DNA of 34,642 bases from Terriglobales bacterium (GTDB lineage: Bacteria > Acidobacteriota > Terriglobia > Terriglobales > Acidobacteriaceae), in NCBI GenBank assembly GCA_025927695.1, contig JAICLA010000005.1, positions 1 through 34,642 on the forward strand. The letters are read 5' to 3'. A program made the translations under genes and the position numbers. Below, in pieces: positions 27,279 through 33,895 of the stretch (position 1 is the first letter of the stretch; each line of letters opens with the position of its first letter). The notes below the pieces were generated by a model. The model saw only the letters and a program-made list of their open reading frames with translations. It did not search any database and was not told the origin of the DNA.

Positions 27279-29912
27279 TTAATACGTTGTTTGCCTCGTG
27301 TGAGTTCCCGAAAAGTGCAGCAATTGCGTGAGCGCAAGGTTGTTTATATCTAATCCAAAGTAACGTCCGGTGGTCGCGACTTCAACGCTCGTGTTATCAC
27401 CATACGCTACCAGTAAGCTGGGTTTCGCATTGTTCACGATGGTCTGGAACGATTGCGACTCATTCGGATTCAGCTGCGCAGCCAGCGGTTGCGCAACGCT
27501 CACTAGATTCTGATACAGGATGCCAGATGCATTGGTGTGGTCATCCTTCGGCAGAAGTGAGGTGAATGTCTGGGACTTCGCAAGCGTCACCCCGCTCTCG
27601 CGCACCTTGATCGCCTGGAGGATCAGAGCGCGCGACGGCCCAGCCACCAGATAACCGGAGTCGTAGGTGTAATCCACCTCTATCGGCATGCCCACCTTGT
27701 TCGCTGACTTGATCGCATAGTAGACGCGGCCATCTTCCTCGGCTTGATCGAGAGTCACGCCCGGTCGCCCATTTTTTGTGGCTTCGTCGTTCAGTTTCTG
27801 AATGATCAAACCGATGGTCGATTGCAGCTTGCTCTGGTCGTTCACCTCAGCAATGAACTTCCATGATGGAGTCGGCACAACAGGTCCGTCGATGGCCAGC
27901 GTGAAGTCTCCGCCCAGCGCCGCGGCGAGATCATCACGCATGTCAAAGTTCATCTTCGATTGGAACTCGGCGCGCTTGGCTGCTGGATCGCCACCGGTGG
28001 CAGTGATGATTGCGAATACGTCATCCATCATCAGCGCGGGTGACTTCACCGCTCCAGCGAATACTACCGCTGCGTCGGGCGACACGTAATCCAATGAACC
28101 AATGCCTGACGGTCCAGCCAGCCATGACGCGACGCCGGTGCGCTCACTACCGAAGGTCAACGTCGCCCGGGTGTCCATAGCGCCATTGACTTCGCGGCGT
28201 TTTGCAACAAGGAACCGCGCAGCGCCGAAGCCTGATTGTTCAAGTCCAGCATCGTGTGTCGGAGTCACTCCGCGTGCGGCAGCTCGCGCCTTCTGCTGAC
28301 TGATCATCTGTTCAAGGTTCGCGGCAAACAACATTCCGGCGCCCTCTTGATATCCAGCCCTCACCGCCTGACCGAACGCACTTGCAGCGAATCCCGTATT
28401 GCCGGTTCCCTGCGCATGTTTAGCAGCAAGTGTTTGCAGAAGCTGTCCGTCACTTGATGCTATCAAGAGGTCTTTGCCCGCCATGATAGCCAGACCGTTC
28501 TGCGGAAGGACTGCGCTGGCGACGTTATCATCACTCAAGATCGCAATGTCTTCGCGCTTCGTCGAATCCGGCTGTTCCTTTTCAAGTTCGCTCTGCAAGT
28601 AGTCGCGCAGTCCAGGGCGTGTTACCGGAGCCATCACCACGAAGGCCACATTCTTGCGGTACGGACTCGGCACCAGCATCACGACTGCTTCATTACCCAG
28701 ATACTGCCCCACGGTTTGTATCCGGTCGATCATCTCCTGGAACTTGGCATTATCTTTGCCGACATTGTTCTGGCCCCACCACTGCTTCAGGACCGCACTG
28801 GTCGCCATCTCATCCTGGAACATCTTGTTGGCTTCCGCAATCTGCTCGCCGTAGTTGGGGATGCTGGCGTAGACCACCGCGCCTTCAGGAGCAATGGGCA
28901 AGATCTGGCTGTCATATCGCAACGCCGGTGAAGGAATGCCCTCAAACTTCTTCTGCAGCTTTGAGAACTCGGCCAACAGAGCAAGATGCTGTTCGCGATT
29001 CTGGCTCCATGAGATCTCCTCCTCGATCGGGACTTCGCCCATCGCGATGCTGGTGGCCACCTGGTCGCCGGAGTGCAGCACGCTTTCGCCGCCACCGTCA
29101 TCCACGTGTACTTCGCCTTCGATCACCGAGACGCGCGTGCCTTTCATGCCGCTGTCCACTGAAAATACTGTGCCGGTCACGGCGACCTTGGCCGAATCCG
29201 TAGACACATATAAATGTCCATGCTGCTTGGCGGCTTGCACGATGATGCGTCCGCGGCCGAGTCTGATCGTCGTCGCGCGACGCCGCGCCGCGACTGAAAA
29301 CTCCGCGCGCTCATTCATCTCAACCAGCGAGCCATCGAACAACTTCACAATGGCGTGCGCTCCGCCACCTGTGCGGACAATGTCGCCTTCGTTCACCTGC
29401 ATGCCCGGAAGCAAAGGACGCTCCGTATTCGCGGCGATCAAATAGACCGGCCCTTGCGCCGATTGCAGTTGCGCGCGGTCACCGGGAAGAGGTGCGAGAT
29501 AGAAATTCAACGCGAAACCGGAGATGCCGACAACCATCAGCAGCATCGCCGCGATAGCGAACCGCTGCGAATTCCAGAACGGCGCACGCGTCTCTGCAGT
29601 CTGCTTCCACTGCCCCACGGACACGACTGAATCCTGCTGATACATGCAACGGCAGTTCACGCACTCATGCATGTGGTCTTCCACCAGCAAAACGCGCTCG
29701 CGAGAAAGGCTCTGCGCGCGGAATGCCGGGAACAATGCTCGCACATCTTCGCAACCGGAGATGCGTACCGCATTTGCACCAGCTTGAACGCCGCTGATCT
29801 TATTCCACACGCGCTCGCTGGCGGCTTGCGCTAAAACTTCAGGCGCTTCATCACGCCGCATGGCGTGGATGGCTTCGTCGAGAGGATTCTTGTTCTTTTT
29901 ATCGTTGTTCAT
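27279..29912 (-). CDS. FecR-type anti-sigma membrane protein with giant extracytoplasmic domain
   Basis: An 877-residue protein that probably holds the neighbouring sigma factor inactive and senses the envelope. Cytoplasmic residues 1-115 contain H80-x3-C84-x2-C87 (HMHECVNC), the zinc-binding anti-sigma motif. One TM helix spans about 117-139. A FecR-like beta domain follows (about 150-290: [38 protein letters not shown]). Residues about 325-877 form a large region resembling DUF3352-type substrate-like domains, with alternating KFxEMIDRIQ helices and SWKFIAEV strands; I cannot place it firmly. FecR-type proteins normally end near residue 300. It starts 12 bases after the sigma gene. Regulated proteolysis or ligand binding outside the membrane are the possible triggers. 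Confidence 0.82.
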
Positions 29913-29924
29913 AATGGTCGCTCG

Positions 29925-30422
29925 CTATCGCTTGAAATCTTTTTGCAACTGCCTGCGAACACGAAAGAGAGTTACGGCCACCGCTGCTTGCGAAGTGCCT
30001 AGCATCTGGGCGATCTCTTTGTTGCTGTGCTCTTCCACATAACGGAGCACGAACATCTCCGCATGTTTCGGATTCAGCTTGGCCAGTGCCGCACGCAATT
30101 GCGCGCGCAACTCCTGGTCATGAGAATTGCCTGTGGGCTCCGGCGAGTCTTCCAGCGCTTGCGCATTGGCAGATTGCCGGCTGCGCAAAATGTCGAGTGC
30201 AGCATTAAGCGCCGCGCGATACAGATAGCTGCCAGGATTAGCGATCTCTGTCTCTTCGCGCCGTGCCAGTCTCAGAAAAACCGTTTGCAAAACGTCTTCT
30301 GCGTCCGCCGTGTTGCCGGTCACACGATAAGCAGCGCGAAAGACTTGCATCCGATGCTTCCGGAAAGCCTCTTCCAACCCGCTTTGCGTATCTACCGGTG
30401 ATATGGCCAATGCTGCACTCAC
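29925..30422 (-). CDS. ECF-type RNA polymerase sigma factor
   Basis: A sigma-70 family factor of the extracytoplasmic-function group, with only regions 2 and 4. Region 2 is near YRVTGNTADAEDVLQTVFLR; region 4 is LAKLNPKHAEMFVLRYVEEH followed by the helix-turn-helix HSNKEIAQMLGTSQAAVAVT and the basic end FRVRRQLQKDFKR. GTG at 30422 is preferred: AGGTGG lies 8 bases before it, while the GTG four codons upstream (30434) sits directly beside the same purine run with no spacing. It is first in the six-gene operon, so it probably controls its own expression together with the ABC genes. The target promoter is unknown. Confidence 0.92.
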   Translation of the reverse strand: MSAALAISPVDTQSGLEEAFRKHRMQVFRAAYRVTGNTADAEDVLQTVFLRLARREETEIANPGSYLYRAALNAALDILRSRQSANAQALEDSPEPTGNSHDQELRAQLRAALAKLNPKHAEMFVLRYVEEHSNKEIAQMLGTSQAAVAVTLFRVRRQLQKDFKR

Positions 30423-30430
30423 TCTTTTCC

Positions 30431-30436
30431 CCACCT
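30431..30436 (-). promoter_or_regulatory. Shine-Dalgarno deciding the GTG start of the ECF sigma gene
   Basis: The minus strand reads AGGTGG, one mismatch from AGGAGG, 8 bases before GTG at 30422-30420. The upstream GTG (30434-30432) lies inside this run and so lacks a usable site. Confidence 0.6.
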
Positions 30437-30648: not shown

Positions 30649-31662
30649 ATGTATCTCTTCGAAAAGACCCCGGCGGATGTGAGAGACGTACTCACCAAGC
30701 CCATCCGCGATCTGAACCTCAAGATCGAGGGTTCATCCGTCGAGAGATTCGTGCAACAGCTCTATCGCGAACTTGATCGTAAGGGACTGAAGAAGTTTCG
30801 CCCCAAAGTTTATTTAAGCGATGAATGGGGATGCCCTTCTGAAGAACCCGTCATTGGGATTCCCTTCTATCTCGCCGATCCCAAACTGCAAAAGCTTGAA
30901 CGCGAGATGAACGACCTTGAAGATTCGCGCCAGATCATGATGTACCTGCGCCATGAAGCCGGACACGCATTCAACTACGCGTACGAGCTTTACAAGACTC
31001 AGGAGTGGCACGACAAGTTCGGTTCGTTCCGCAAGCCATATCGCGATCACTACAAGCCCGTGCCCTTCTCTCGCCGATTCGTCCGACATATGGAAGGCTG
31101 GTACGCGCAGAAACATCCCGATGAAGATTTTGCAGAGACCTTCGCCGTGTGGATGACGCCGCGCTCGAACTGGCGCAAGCGCTACAAAGGTTGGGGCGCA
31201 ATGGCGAAACTGAAATATATGGAACGCATCGGCAGGAAGTTTGGCGATGCGGATCCTCTGCGTCCGCAAGGCGACGCGGACATTACCGTGGAAGATATGG
31301 ACGATACGGTCGAGCAGTTCTACGCCAGCCACAACGAAGACACGCGTGCGGCTGACGAACTTCTTCTCGACACCGACTTGCAGGACATCTTCAACGTGTC
31401 ACCGCGCAAGCGCAAAGGCGTACGTCCGGCTGCCGACTTTCTACGCGACAACCGCAAAGTGATCACCGACAAACTTACGTACTGGACCGGCGTGCGTCGT
31501 CCGCTGATCAAAAAATTAGTCGACGCGATCGAAAAACGTTCTGACGAATTAAAGCTTCGCGTCGAGTCAGAGAACGAAAAACAGAACCTCACTGAGCTCA
31601 CTGTCTTCTGCACCGCGCTCGCCATGAATTATTTGTCGCGCGGCAAGTTCATACAAAGTTGA
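30649..31662 (+). CDS. Putative zinc metallopeptidase (HEAGH)
   Basis: A 337-residue protein, not named in any pathway I know. H102-E103-A-G-H106 (RHEAGHAFNYAYEL) is a zinc HExxH motif in a predicted helix, and E163 in DFAETFAVWM, 57 residues on, is a good third ligand of gluzincin type. No signal peptide or TM helix is seen, so it is cytoplasmic. The C-terminal third (about 250-337) is basic and helical, with RKRKGVRPAADFLRDN. It lies 65 bases before the ATP-grasp gene on the same strand. It may cut or finish peptides made by that ligase. I recognise a putative zinc-binding metallopeptidase but not a named family. Confidence 0.75.
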   Translation: MYLFEKTPADVRDVLTKPIRDLNLKIEGSSVERFVQQLYRELDRKGLKKFRPKVYLSDEWGCPSEEPVIGIPFYLADPKLQKLEREMNDLEDSRQIMMYLRHEAGHAFNYAYELYKTQEWHDKFGSFRKPYRDHYKPVPFSRRFVRHMEGWYAQKHPDEDFAETFAVWMTPRSNWRKRYKGWGAMAKLKYMERIGRKFGDADPLRPQGDADITVEDMDDTVEQFYASHNEDTRAADELLLDTDLQDIFNVSPRKRKGVRPAADFLRDNRKVITDKLTYWTGVRRPLIKKLVDAIEKRSDELKLRVESENEKQNLTELTVFCTALAMNYLSRGKFIQS

Positions 31663-31727
31663 TTCCCCCTCCCTTTCTGCCCTAGATTTTCATTCCAATC
31701 AGCAGGACAATAGATATAGAGGTGTAG

Positions 31728-32795
31728 ATGAGTCCTGCGAAACTCAAAGTCGCCGTGCTGTACGACCTTTGGGAAGAGGAACCCGTTGCAGTGCCGCATG
31801 AAGAAGTAGAAGAAAAAGCGGCCAAGAACGGGAAGAACGGCAAGGCGCCGAAAAAGAAAGCGAAGAAAAAGCCCAAAGAAGATCGCGACGAGATCTTTGA
31901 GGCGCTGGAGAAGCTCGGTCACGAGCCTTTCTACCAAGTCCTCGACGGCACCAAGGGCTCGCTCACTTCACTCGGCCGCTGCGGCGCGGACCTCGTCTTC
32001 AATCTCACTGAATCCTACGGCGGCGACGATACCAAGGACATGAACATCGCCGCGTACATGGATCTTATCGGTATTCCCTACACCGGCACCGGTCCGCGAG
32101 GATTATTTCTCGGACAGGAAAAATCTGTCGCAAAAAAACTCTTCCAGTTTCACGGCGTGCGTACTCCTATCTTTGCCACCTCTTATAAAGGAATGCTTGA
32201 TCACTCGCATGACATTGGCTTCCCTCTCATCGTGAAGCCCATCGCGGAAGACGGGTCCATCGGCATCGACGGCAACTCCGTGGTGGAGAGCGTGAAGGAA
32301 TTAATGGAGCGCATCCATTACATCCATGAGGAATTCGATTCGCCCGCGCTCATCGAAGAATACATTGATGGACGCGAGATATATGCCGGCGTTCTTGGCA
32401 ATACAACCCCGGAAGTTCTACCGCTTATCGAACTCGATCTTTCGAAGCTCCCCGCCGGCACGCCTCGCGTCGCCTGCCAAGACGTGAAGTTCGACCGCGA
32501 GACCGAAGCATACAAGCTCACGAAGTCCACTCCCGTCGAAGATCTCGACGAAGAGACCGTAGAGAAACTGAGCGAAACTGCGCGCCAGGCGTTTCTCGCA
32601 CTCAAGTTCCGTGACTATGCCCGTGTCGATATGCGCCTCAACAACAAGAATGAGGTGTACGTCATAGAGGCGAATCCCAACCCATGGCTCGCAAGCTCAC
32701 AGGAATTCGCCATGGCGGCAAAGAAGTCCGGCCGTACCTACACACAGCTGATCGGCGAGATTGTCGATATGGCCTGGGCTCGCGCGCAGCGGTAA
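31728..32795 (+). CDS. D-Ala-D-Ala-ligase-like ATP-grasp enzyme
   Basis: An ATP-dependent carboxylate-amine ligase. The N-terminal domain begins KLKVAVLYDLWEEEP, then carries a Lys/Glu-rich insert (about 25-54, GKAPKKKAKKKPKED) not found in normal Ddl. The centre has IPYTGTGPRGLFLGQEKSV, the ATP-binding lysine K170 (LIVKPIAEDGSIGI with its glycine loop), the hinge EEYIDGREIYAGVLG and the metal ligands D301 (ARVDMRL), E314 and N316 (VIEANPNPW). Length (355) is near Ddl, but the Ddl substrate signature is altered and no cell-wall genes are nearby. The start ATG has GAGG 5 bases upstream. Coupled with the metallopeptidase gene, it is a probable peptide or amino-acid ligase of unknown substrate. 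Confidence 0.82.
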   Translation: MSPAKLKVAVLYDLWEEEPVAVPHEEVEEKAAKNGKNGKAPKKKAKKKPKEDRDEIFEALEKLGHEPFYQVLDGTKGSLTSLGRCGADLVFNLTESYGGDDTKDMNIAAYMDLIGIPYTGTGPRGLFLGQEKSVAKKLFQFHGVRTPIFATSYKGMLDHSHDIGFPLIVKPIAEDGSIGIDGNSVVESVKELMERIHYIHEEFDSPALIEEYIDGREIYAGVLGNTTPEVLPLIELDLSKLPAGTPRVACQDVKFDRETEAYKLTKSTPVEDLDEETVEKLSETARQAFLALKFRDYARVDMRLNNKNEVYVIEANPNPWLASSQEFAMAAKKSGRTYTQLIGEIVDMAWARAQR

Positions 32796-32869: not shown

Positions 32870-33895
32870 ATGCCTTCCCCAAAGAACCCTCTCTCACTTT
32901 TTGGCTCTTCGGAGCCGCAGCGTCTAGTCGGGATCGCTCGCCTCGCCGCGCTCGGCGAATCCATTGAAGAAGGTCACAATGTCGAGTACTTCACCATTCC
33001 GGTGAAGTCCCTGCTCAACAAATGCTCGGCCGGCGACCGCATGCCCTTCGATTGGACCATCAACCCATATCGCGGATGCGAATTCGCCTGCAAGTATTGC
33101 TACGCTCGCTACACGCATGAGTTCATGGAGATGCATGACGGCCTGGACTTCGAACGCAAGATCTACGCCAAGCAGCAGAGTGCATGGCTGTTGCGCCAGG
33201 ACTTGCGCAAGGTGAAGCCGGGACAAGAGATAGCCATTGGCACGGCGACTGATCCCTACCAACCAGCGGAGCGCCGGTATGAGATCACGCGTTCGGTGAT
33301 GGAAGAGCTCAGTGTACACAGCGGGCTGTCGATCGGCTTGGTCACGAAGTCACAACTTGTCTTGCGCGACGTCGACGTGCTGAAAAAGATCGCCGAGCGC
33401 AACCGCCTCATCATTCATCTGACGGTCACAACAATGAACATAGAACTCGCGCGAAAGCTGGAACCCCGCGCGCCGCGCCCTGACCTTCGCATGGATGCAG
33501 TGAAGAAGTTGAACGAGAGCGGGATCCGCGCTGCGGTCATCTGCGCGCCTGTACTACCCGGAATAACAGACGCGCCCGCCGACCTCGACAAAGTAGTACG
33601 TGCTGCGAAAAAGGCAGGCGCGGCTTACATCTTCACTAATCCGCTGTTCTTGAAGCCGTGTTCTGCGAAAGTGTTTCTACCTTTCGTGAAAGAACACTTC
33701 CCTTACCTCTATGACAGCTATCAGGTGCGCTACAAAGATGGCGCATTTGTTTCGCCGGCCTATCGCAAACGCCTCACCTTAGTGATGGACAAGCTATGCC
33801 ACAAACACGGCATGCCCGACGGAGCCGAGCGCAGAAAGAAACGCGCCATGCCGGTACGAGAGCTTCCCGGCGAACAGATCAAATTGTTCGGATGA
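32870..33895 (+). CDS. Radical SAM protein, PA0069/Rv2578c type
   Basis: A 341-residue iron-sulphur enzyme using S-adenosylmethionine to make a radical. The cluster motif is C70-x3-C74-x2-C77 in NPYRGCEFACKYCYARYTHE. GTATDPYQPAERRYEITR and VTKSQLVLRDVDVL are shared with the spore photoproduct lyase-related PA0069/Rv2578c group, whose reaction I do not know. It is not a true spore photoproduct lyase, because the gene lies outside any sporulation context and the SPL cysteine near the end is not evident. It ends 17 bases from the convergent udgX, so a DNA-repair link is possible but unproven. Confidence 0.85.
   Translation: MPSPKNPLSLFGSSEPQRLVGIARLAALGESIEEGHNVEYFTIPVKSLLNKCSAGDRMPFDWTINPYRGCEFACKYCYARYTHEFMEMHDGLDFERKIYAKQQSAWLLRQDLRKVKPGQEIAIGTATDPYQPAERRYEITRSVMEELSVHSGLSIGLVTKSQLVLRDVDVLKKIAERNRLIIHLTVTTMNIELARKLEPRAPRPDLRMDAVKKLNESGIRAAVICAPVLPGITDAPADLDKVVRAAKKAGAAYIFTNPLFLKPCSAKVFLPFVKEHFPYLYDSYQVRYKDGAFVSPAYRKRLTLVMDKLCHKHGMPDGAERRKKRAMPVRELPGEQIKLFG

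Follow-up and report, generated by a model that had tools for sequence, protein, structure and literature searches.

What do a zinc metallopeptidase and a Ddl-like ATP-grasp ligase do together when their genes lie side by side with no cell-wall gene next to them? The question is raised by a stretch of DNA of 34,642 nucleotides (the window), which is one whole contig of a 2.8-Mb MAG of the Acidobacteriales that is 72% complete. The original prediction was that an HEAGH zinc protein is encoded directly before a Ddl-like ATP-grasp enzyme, and both ORFs proved exact to the base:

30649-31662, plus strand: zincin metallopeptidase ORF, 337 aa, ATG start
31663-31727, plus strand: intergenic gap of 65 bp, with an AGAGGTG ribosome-binding-like site ahead of the ligase start
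31728-32795, plus strand: ATP-grasp ligase ORF, 355 aa, ATG start

By-eye inspection revealed no terminator in the 65-bp gap between the two genes, and no secretion signal was seen in the sequence of either protein. Neither frame is a product of chance, since both are conserved from 98% to ∼30% identity in many genomes and their catalytic residues are invariant. The pair had also been described as lying without cell-wall genes. This is indeed the case: it is flanked in the window by an ECF sigma factor that is divergently encoded, by a FecR/DUF3352 gene and by genes for a radical SAM protein and a UDG, none of them a cell-wall gene. The ligase is present as a single copy in the incomplete MAG.

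Divergent from the pair, positions 27279-30434 (minus strand) encode an ECF sigma factor and then a protein of 877 aa that combines zf-HC2-like, FecR and DUF3352-like parts, a probable sigma/anti-sigma locus. Just 3' of the pair (32870-33895, plus strand) is an Rv2578c/PA0069-type radical SAM protein, which scores 257 and 236 bits, below both curated cut-offs, and which was not found beside the pair in the relatives' loci examined. Plasmid carriage of the pair was rejected, as no plasmid match to the peptidase was obtained, and neither the peptidase nor the ligase matched a PADLOC anti-phage defence model.

Linkage of the two genes across phyla

Adjacency across distant genomes had been set beforehand as a test of the pairing. 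A profile built from 20 relatives identified at least 568 confirmed peptidase relatives in GTDB genomes, and the best 80 loci were analysed. In 73 of these best 80 (of at least 568), spread over about nine phyla, the ligase adjoins the peptidase; at least two of the seven loci without an adjacent ligase are cut by contig ends. The best 80 come from Acidobacteriota, Rokubacteria, Myxococcota, Gemmatimonadota and Eisenbacteria and, further, from Chloroflexota, Planctomycetota, Omnitrophota, Kiritimatiellota and one genome labelled Patescibacteria, although single taxon labels may be wrong because most loci are from MAGs. One related locus (L049) has a peptidase 98% identical to that of the window, and two isolates, Corallococcus exercitus AB043A and C. 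interemptor AB047A (Myxococcota), carry the pair.

Since the best 80 loci had been chosen by similarity, two samples drawn by taxonomy were added. In the Acidobacteriota sample, a ligase gene lies within 500 bp of the peptidase gene in 39 of 55 matches, 33 of the pairs being tandem with the peptidase first and six convergent. Among 150 Gemmatimonadota genomes, the ligase adjoins 40 of 41 close peptidases (35 tandem, five convergent, one of the latter at 1.3 kb), and the sole unpaired one is near a contig end. It also adjoins all nine remote peptidases of this phylum (∼45 bits), here in the order ligase-peptidase. The two remote peptidases that were scanned combine N-terminal zinc ribbons and Peptidase_Mx in one protein, and in one locus (L178) the zinc-ribbon peptidase gene overlaps the ligase gene. 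The pair thus occurs in three arrangements: tandem with the peptidase first, convergent, and ligase first. No third gene family recurs around it in the best 80 of at least 568 loci. Some lineages have the peptidase only, so this protein may also act alone.

Upstream of the peptidase start (by 27-28 bp), six of seven Gemmatimonadota loci (L103, L104, L110, L113, L117 and L118) carry a sigma54-like GG-N10-GC element (GGTAYG...CTTGC), for which the background is 0.004 per 310 nt. The element is absent ahead of the peptidase in the window and in the remaining loci of the best 80 (of at least 568).

Across the best 80 of at least 568 loci, peptidase and ligase distances are correlated with a Mantel r of 0.90, a value that none of 2000 permutations reached. 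A tree of the ligases unites all tandem pairs in one group (99% SH-aLRT), and the full set of pair ligases is compatible with a single clade (p-AU 0.65). Two independent recruitments of the ligase, considered for the first convergent group, are therefore not needed. The convergent ligases of Gemmatimonadota and the ligases of zinc-ribbon peptidases are nested within the pair clade, indicating that gene order has changed more than once. Adjacency that persists despite such reordering would not be well explained by ordinary operon inertia. That the peptidase and the ligase act together as one functional unit is a prediction strongly supported by the adjacency of their genes in many bacteria that are only distantly related.

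Predicted active sites of the two proteins

The peptidase matches PF15887 (Peptidase_Mx) over residues 83-169 with 32.4 bits, a weak match that exceeds the gathering score of 27. Its features are as follows:

Residues 1-201 of the peptidase, plus strand: M34-like catalytic domain (AF2 model, VIA matches)
Residues ∼205-337 of the peptidase, plus strand: helical C-terminal domain, for which no match was found
30952-30966 (residues 102-106), plus strand: HEAGH zinc motif (alignment of 59 sequences)
31114-31143 (residues 156-165), plus strand: HPDEDFAETF motif (alignment of 59 sequences)

In the 59 aligned sequences, R101, H102, H106, Q154, H156, P157, D160, F161, E163 and W175 are invariant, and Y152, E103, G105 and E159 are conserved in at least 90%; the HPDEDFAETF region is also kept in the remote zinc-ribbon peptidase. 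The AF2 model (pLDDT 88.7) gave VIA matches of residues 19-201 to M34-type zincins with Z 8-10, the best Z of 10.2 being moderate. Foldseek comparison of the model with solved zincins yielded no significant match (E ∼0.5 or worse), and no significant sequence match of the peptidase was found in PDB. Y152 and E159 have what we take to be the Tyr-x6-Glu spacing of M34 peptidases. Because this spacing is shared with the M34 enzymes, E159 is probably the third zinc ligand. As far as sequence can tell, the peptidase retains a complete zincin active-site motif, and zinc-dependent activity is predicted. A tubulin-detyrosinase-like fold (MATCAP), also considered for this protein, was rejected; the Foldseek match is non-significant (E 0.8) and the fold is absent from the VIA table shown.

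For the ligase, Pfam, PDB sequence and fold matches are all headed by Ddl enzymes. The best Pfam match is PF07478 (Dala_Dala_lig_C, 101.9 bits), and the AF2 model (pLDDT 89.5) keeps the full-length Ddl fold, with a VIA Z of 33.5 over 293 residues (rmsd 2.5) against Pseudomonas aeruginosa DdlB. The protein falls below the cut-offs of both TIGR01205 (109.9 bits, cut-off 245.65) and NF002378 (127.1 bits, cut-off 243). Residues were numbered after Escherichia coli DdlB, whose functional roles are general knowledge of that enzyme, and 81 relatives were compared. All nine ATP/Mg residues are present in the window ligase: K97, K215, E187, R255, D257, E270 and N272, kept in 81 of 81 ligases, and K144 and E180, kept in 74. 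The D-Ala triad E15/S150/Y216 is replaced in its entirety, together with H63 and G276. Across the 81 relatives, E15 is mostly K or R, S150 mostly G or A, Y216 nearly always W or F and H63 mostly E; G276 is Trp or Tyr in most ligases, and S281 is replaced in the window ligase and most relatives. New in these ligases are R303 and N318, both invariant, and the near-invariant E326 (72/81). A further change concerns the following stretch:

31773-31877 (residues 16-50 of the ligase), plus strand: Lys/Arg-rich low-confidence loop that replaces the D-Ala1-binding loop of Ddl with its catalytic Glu15

The loop of the window ligase contains 11 Lys/Arg residues and has a pLDDT below 50 at residues 18-29. 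Eight or more Lys/Arg residues occur in it in 41 of 81 pair ligases, in none of 20 sister ligases and in none of six Ddl. Judged from these residues, the Ddl machinery for ATP and Mg is retained and the amino-acid pocket rebuilt.

A separate true Ddl, far above the cut-off, is encoded in all five complete relatives, and six of seven genomes of other lineages have one as well; none was seen in the window's own MAG, which is 72% complete. A ligase that simply makes D-Ala-D-Ala had been named at the outset as the case that would undo the prediction. Such a product is unlikely, given the missed cut-offs, the lost triad and the separate Ddl of relatives, and the same three observations rule out identity with a housekeeping Ddl.

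Ligases related to those of the pair have partners of their own. In a sister clade of Acidobacteriota (L129-L137 and L143; e.g. L133:4576-8340), two Ddl-like ATP-grasp ligases are encoded in tandem, and their neighbours are a GNAT acetyltransferase gene, a lysine-2,3-aminomutase-like radical SAM gene or both; similar tandem ligase matches are common in Gemmatimonadota. This clade looks like a putative undescribed pathway for a beta-lysine-containing peptide or osmolyte. In four of four loci of one Acidobacteriota family (L182:3408-5871, L183:281-2744, L185:3641-6106 and L186:4721-7600), the gene for a related ligase comes after that for an Amidase_2 protein whose N-terminus is twin-arginine-like, which is another predicted ligase-amidohydrolase pairing. 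A single locus (L184:3566-4393, minus strand) encodes, divergently from a related zincin-less ligase, a protein of 275 aa whose N-terminal start looks C39-like by eye. In this protein, a weak match to the zincin's C-terminal domain (E 2e-4) raises the possibility of a swap of catalytic domain.

Possible roles of the pair

We propose that the pair would constitute a cytosolic unit that makes and breaks one kind of amide bond. The ligase would activate a carboxylate as an acyl-phosphate and couple it to an amine, so that a common acceptor of the cell, either the end of a protein or peptide or a small metabolite, receives an amino acid or short peptide. This addition would be taken off or trimmed by the metallopeptidase, which would make the modification reversible or set its length. 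Since no gene for substrate synthesis, for transport or for a precursor is conserved with the pair, its two substrates are expected among the ordinary components of the cell.

The best explanation, which we adopt tentatively, is that the ligase adds its group to a protein or peptide acceptor and that the zincin removes or trims it; both the substrate and the direction are what we infer. Two features speak for such an acceptor rather than a free dipeptide: the several adaptor-like zinc ribbons of one peptidase branch and the endopeptidase-like catalytic domain. Against this explanation stand the peptidase-only lineages, the non-significant Foldseek result and a VIA score that is only moderate (Z 10). 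Our confidence is not higher mainly because sister ligases lie beside lysine-2,3-aminomutase and GNAT genes, which points to small-molecule products there. It is improbable that the pair amounts to a widespread bacterial system for reversible protein or peptide tagging, with a Ddl-derived ligase and a zincin eraser. Here the Lys/Arg-rich loop would recruit the acceptor or be the acceptor itself, and the zinc ribbons would target the eraser.

Alternatively, the ligase might make a free di- or tripeptide, such as a compatible solute or storage peptide, that the peptidase recycles, which we regard as rather unlikely. The genes beside the tandem sister ligases are those expected for a product of the acetyl-beta-lysine type, and single amino acids are the general substrates joined by enzymes of the Ddl fold. 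A peptidase gene, of the M42 family, is likewise part of the NAGGN osmolyte-peptide cluster. However, pairs of the window type have no conserved link to an amino-acid-modifying enzyme, a transporter or an acetyltransferase, and an endopeptidase-like zincin core, with several zinc ribbons in one branch, would be unusual for dipeptide cleavage.

We assign a low probability to maturation in the opposite sense, in which the peptidase would expose a new peptide end or make primers that the ligase then extends. Consistent with this order of events, the peptidase gene comes first in the commonest arrangement, one transcript is likely, and cyanophycin synthetase provides a precedent for uniting both activities (PMC9262961). 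Yet the zinc-ribbon branch has the ligase gene first and other pairs are convergent, the peptidase site of the cyanophycin enzyme (HxxEH) is of a different type, and a polymer-related gene is absent nearby.

The pair was originally suggested to be a make-and-trim peptide system. Its core, a making and a trimming enzyme that work together, is well supported; the part that calls for a small-precursor peptide is not. No small ORF within 2.5 kb is conserved with the pair in the best 80 of at least 568 loci, with the exception of one candidate in Gemmatimonadota that occurs independently. This peptide of ∼50 aa (e.g. L104:8645-8794; EPLGIVISRGxxxEPxPxFxAYVWGPxPE...RAA, or, in shorter form, EPLGIVISRG...P.F.AYVWGP.PE) lies directly 5' of the pair in six of seven Gemmatimonadota loci and matches neither Pfam nor NCBIfam. 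Of the 150 Gemmatimonadota genomes, 69 encode it, nearly always as a single copy. Of the 45 top-scoring copies, 13 are beside the pair, 14 are elsewhere in a pair-bearing genome and the remaining 18 come from genomes that lack a close peptidase. The peptide follows a conserved gene of ∼257 aa whether the pair is present or absent, and a terminator-like hairpin with a T run (by eye) separates it from the peptidase gene. Its unlinked copies, its own conserved neighbour and the hairpin speak against it: the peptide is most probably not a dedicated precursor of the pair, although a precursor encoded away from the pair is conceivable.

It is accordingly very unlikely that the pair is a graspetide-like RiPP system, with the ligase modifying and the peptidase cleaving a small precursor: loci with an ATP-grasp enzyme and a zincin do occur among graspetide-like clusters (PMC8939145) and the ∼50-aa peptide precedes the pair in Gemmatimonadota, but that peptide is often unlinked, other small ORFs are not conserved and the ligase is Ddl-like rather than an ATP-grasp of the RimK/MvdD type. 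Just as slight is the chance of a VanA/VanX-style cell-wall variant, in which an altered end of the stem peptide would come from the ligase and the peptidase would remove the normal one: the ligase has the Ddl fold and a neighbouring ligase clade has an Amidase_2 protein as its partner, but the D-Ala1 triad and D-Ala2 contacts are lost and the pocket altered, no mur, racemase, dehydrogenase or resistance gene is in conserved linkage, and relatives have a true Ddl.

Whichever bond the two enzymes act on, one Ddl-like clade appears to have left cell-wall synthesis and to have become tied to a peptidase across about nine phyla. For the genes of the pair in soil bacteria, the labels 'D-alanine--D-alanine ligase' and 'putative zinc-binding metallopeptidase' would be wrong or uninformative. 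The pair would be a two-gene, cytosolic and testable unit and, because Corallococcus is culturable, its substrate is open to ordinary biochemistry and comparative proteomics.

Comparison with known systems

Gene pairs of a ligase and a peptidase are a known theme. Iyer et al. (2009, Mol BioSyst 5:1636) reportedly surveyed amidoligase-peptidase neighbourhoods and the theme of peptide ligases beside unrelated peptidases. In the literature searched, which did not extend to that survey, no description of a Ddl-like ligase paired with Peptidase_Mx was found.

Among the families to which the two proteins are related, Ddl (PF07478/TIGR01205) shares its full-length fold and ATP/Mg residues with the window ligase. 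The latter differs in falling below the cut-offs, in its D-Ala pocket, in R303 and N318 and in the Lys/Arg-rich loop, and is extra to the true Ddl. With Peptidase_Mx (PF15887, putative zinc-binding metallo-peptidase), for which no characterised member was found, the window peptidase shares the HExxH core and an HPxEDFAE motif. The profile covers ∼90 residues of the window protein, however, which has a helical C-terminal domain of its own and is without zinc ribbons. M34-type zincins such as PPEP-1/Zmp1 of Clostridioides difficile share the catalytic fold (Z 8-9 over ∼130 residues) at 13-17% identity, whereas the window protein is predicted to be cytosolic and has the extra helical domain and a ligase partner. 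Zincins also occur in graspetide-like loci (PMC8939145).

Other systems resemble the pair in what their two activities do. In cyanophycin synthetase CphA1, ATP-grasp ligation is combined with a metallopeptidase-like site that trims the product and makes primers (PMC9262961). Compared to the pair, CphA1 is one polypeptide, its HxxEH site has Cys-His-His metal ligands, and it contains a Mur-ligase-like domain too. Tubulin tyrosine ligase attaches an amino acid to the end of a protein, and gluzincin detyrosinases such as MATCAP/TMCP1 remove it (PMC10499314); this system is eukaryotic, lacks operon linkage and belongs to different families. In Pseudomonas RimK/RimB and RloC/RloA, an ATP-grasp ligase gene lies beside a peptidase gene and the two serve one shared process (PMC12239564). 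These systems are like the pair in having adjacent, conserved ligase and peptidase genes, but they combine a RimK-type ligase with a retropepsin-like aspartic peptidase, so that their homology to the pair is limited to the ATP-grasp fold.
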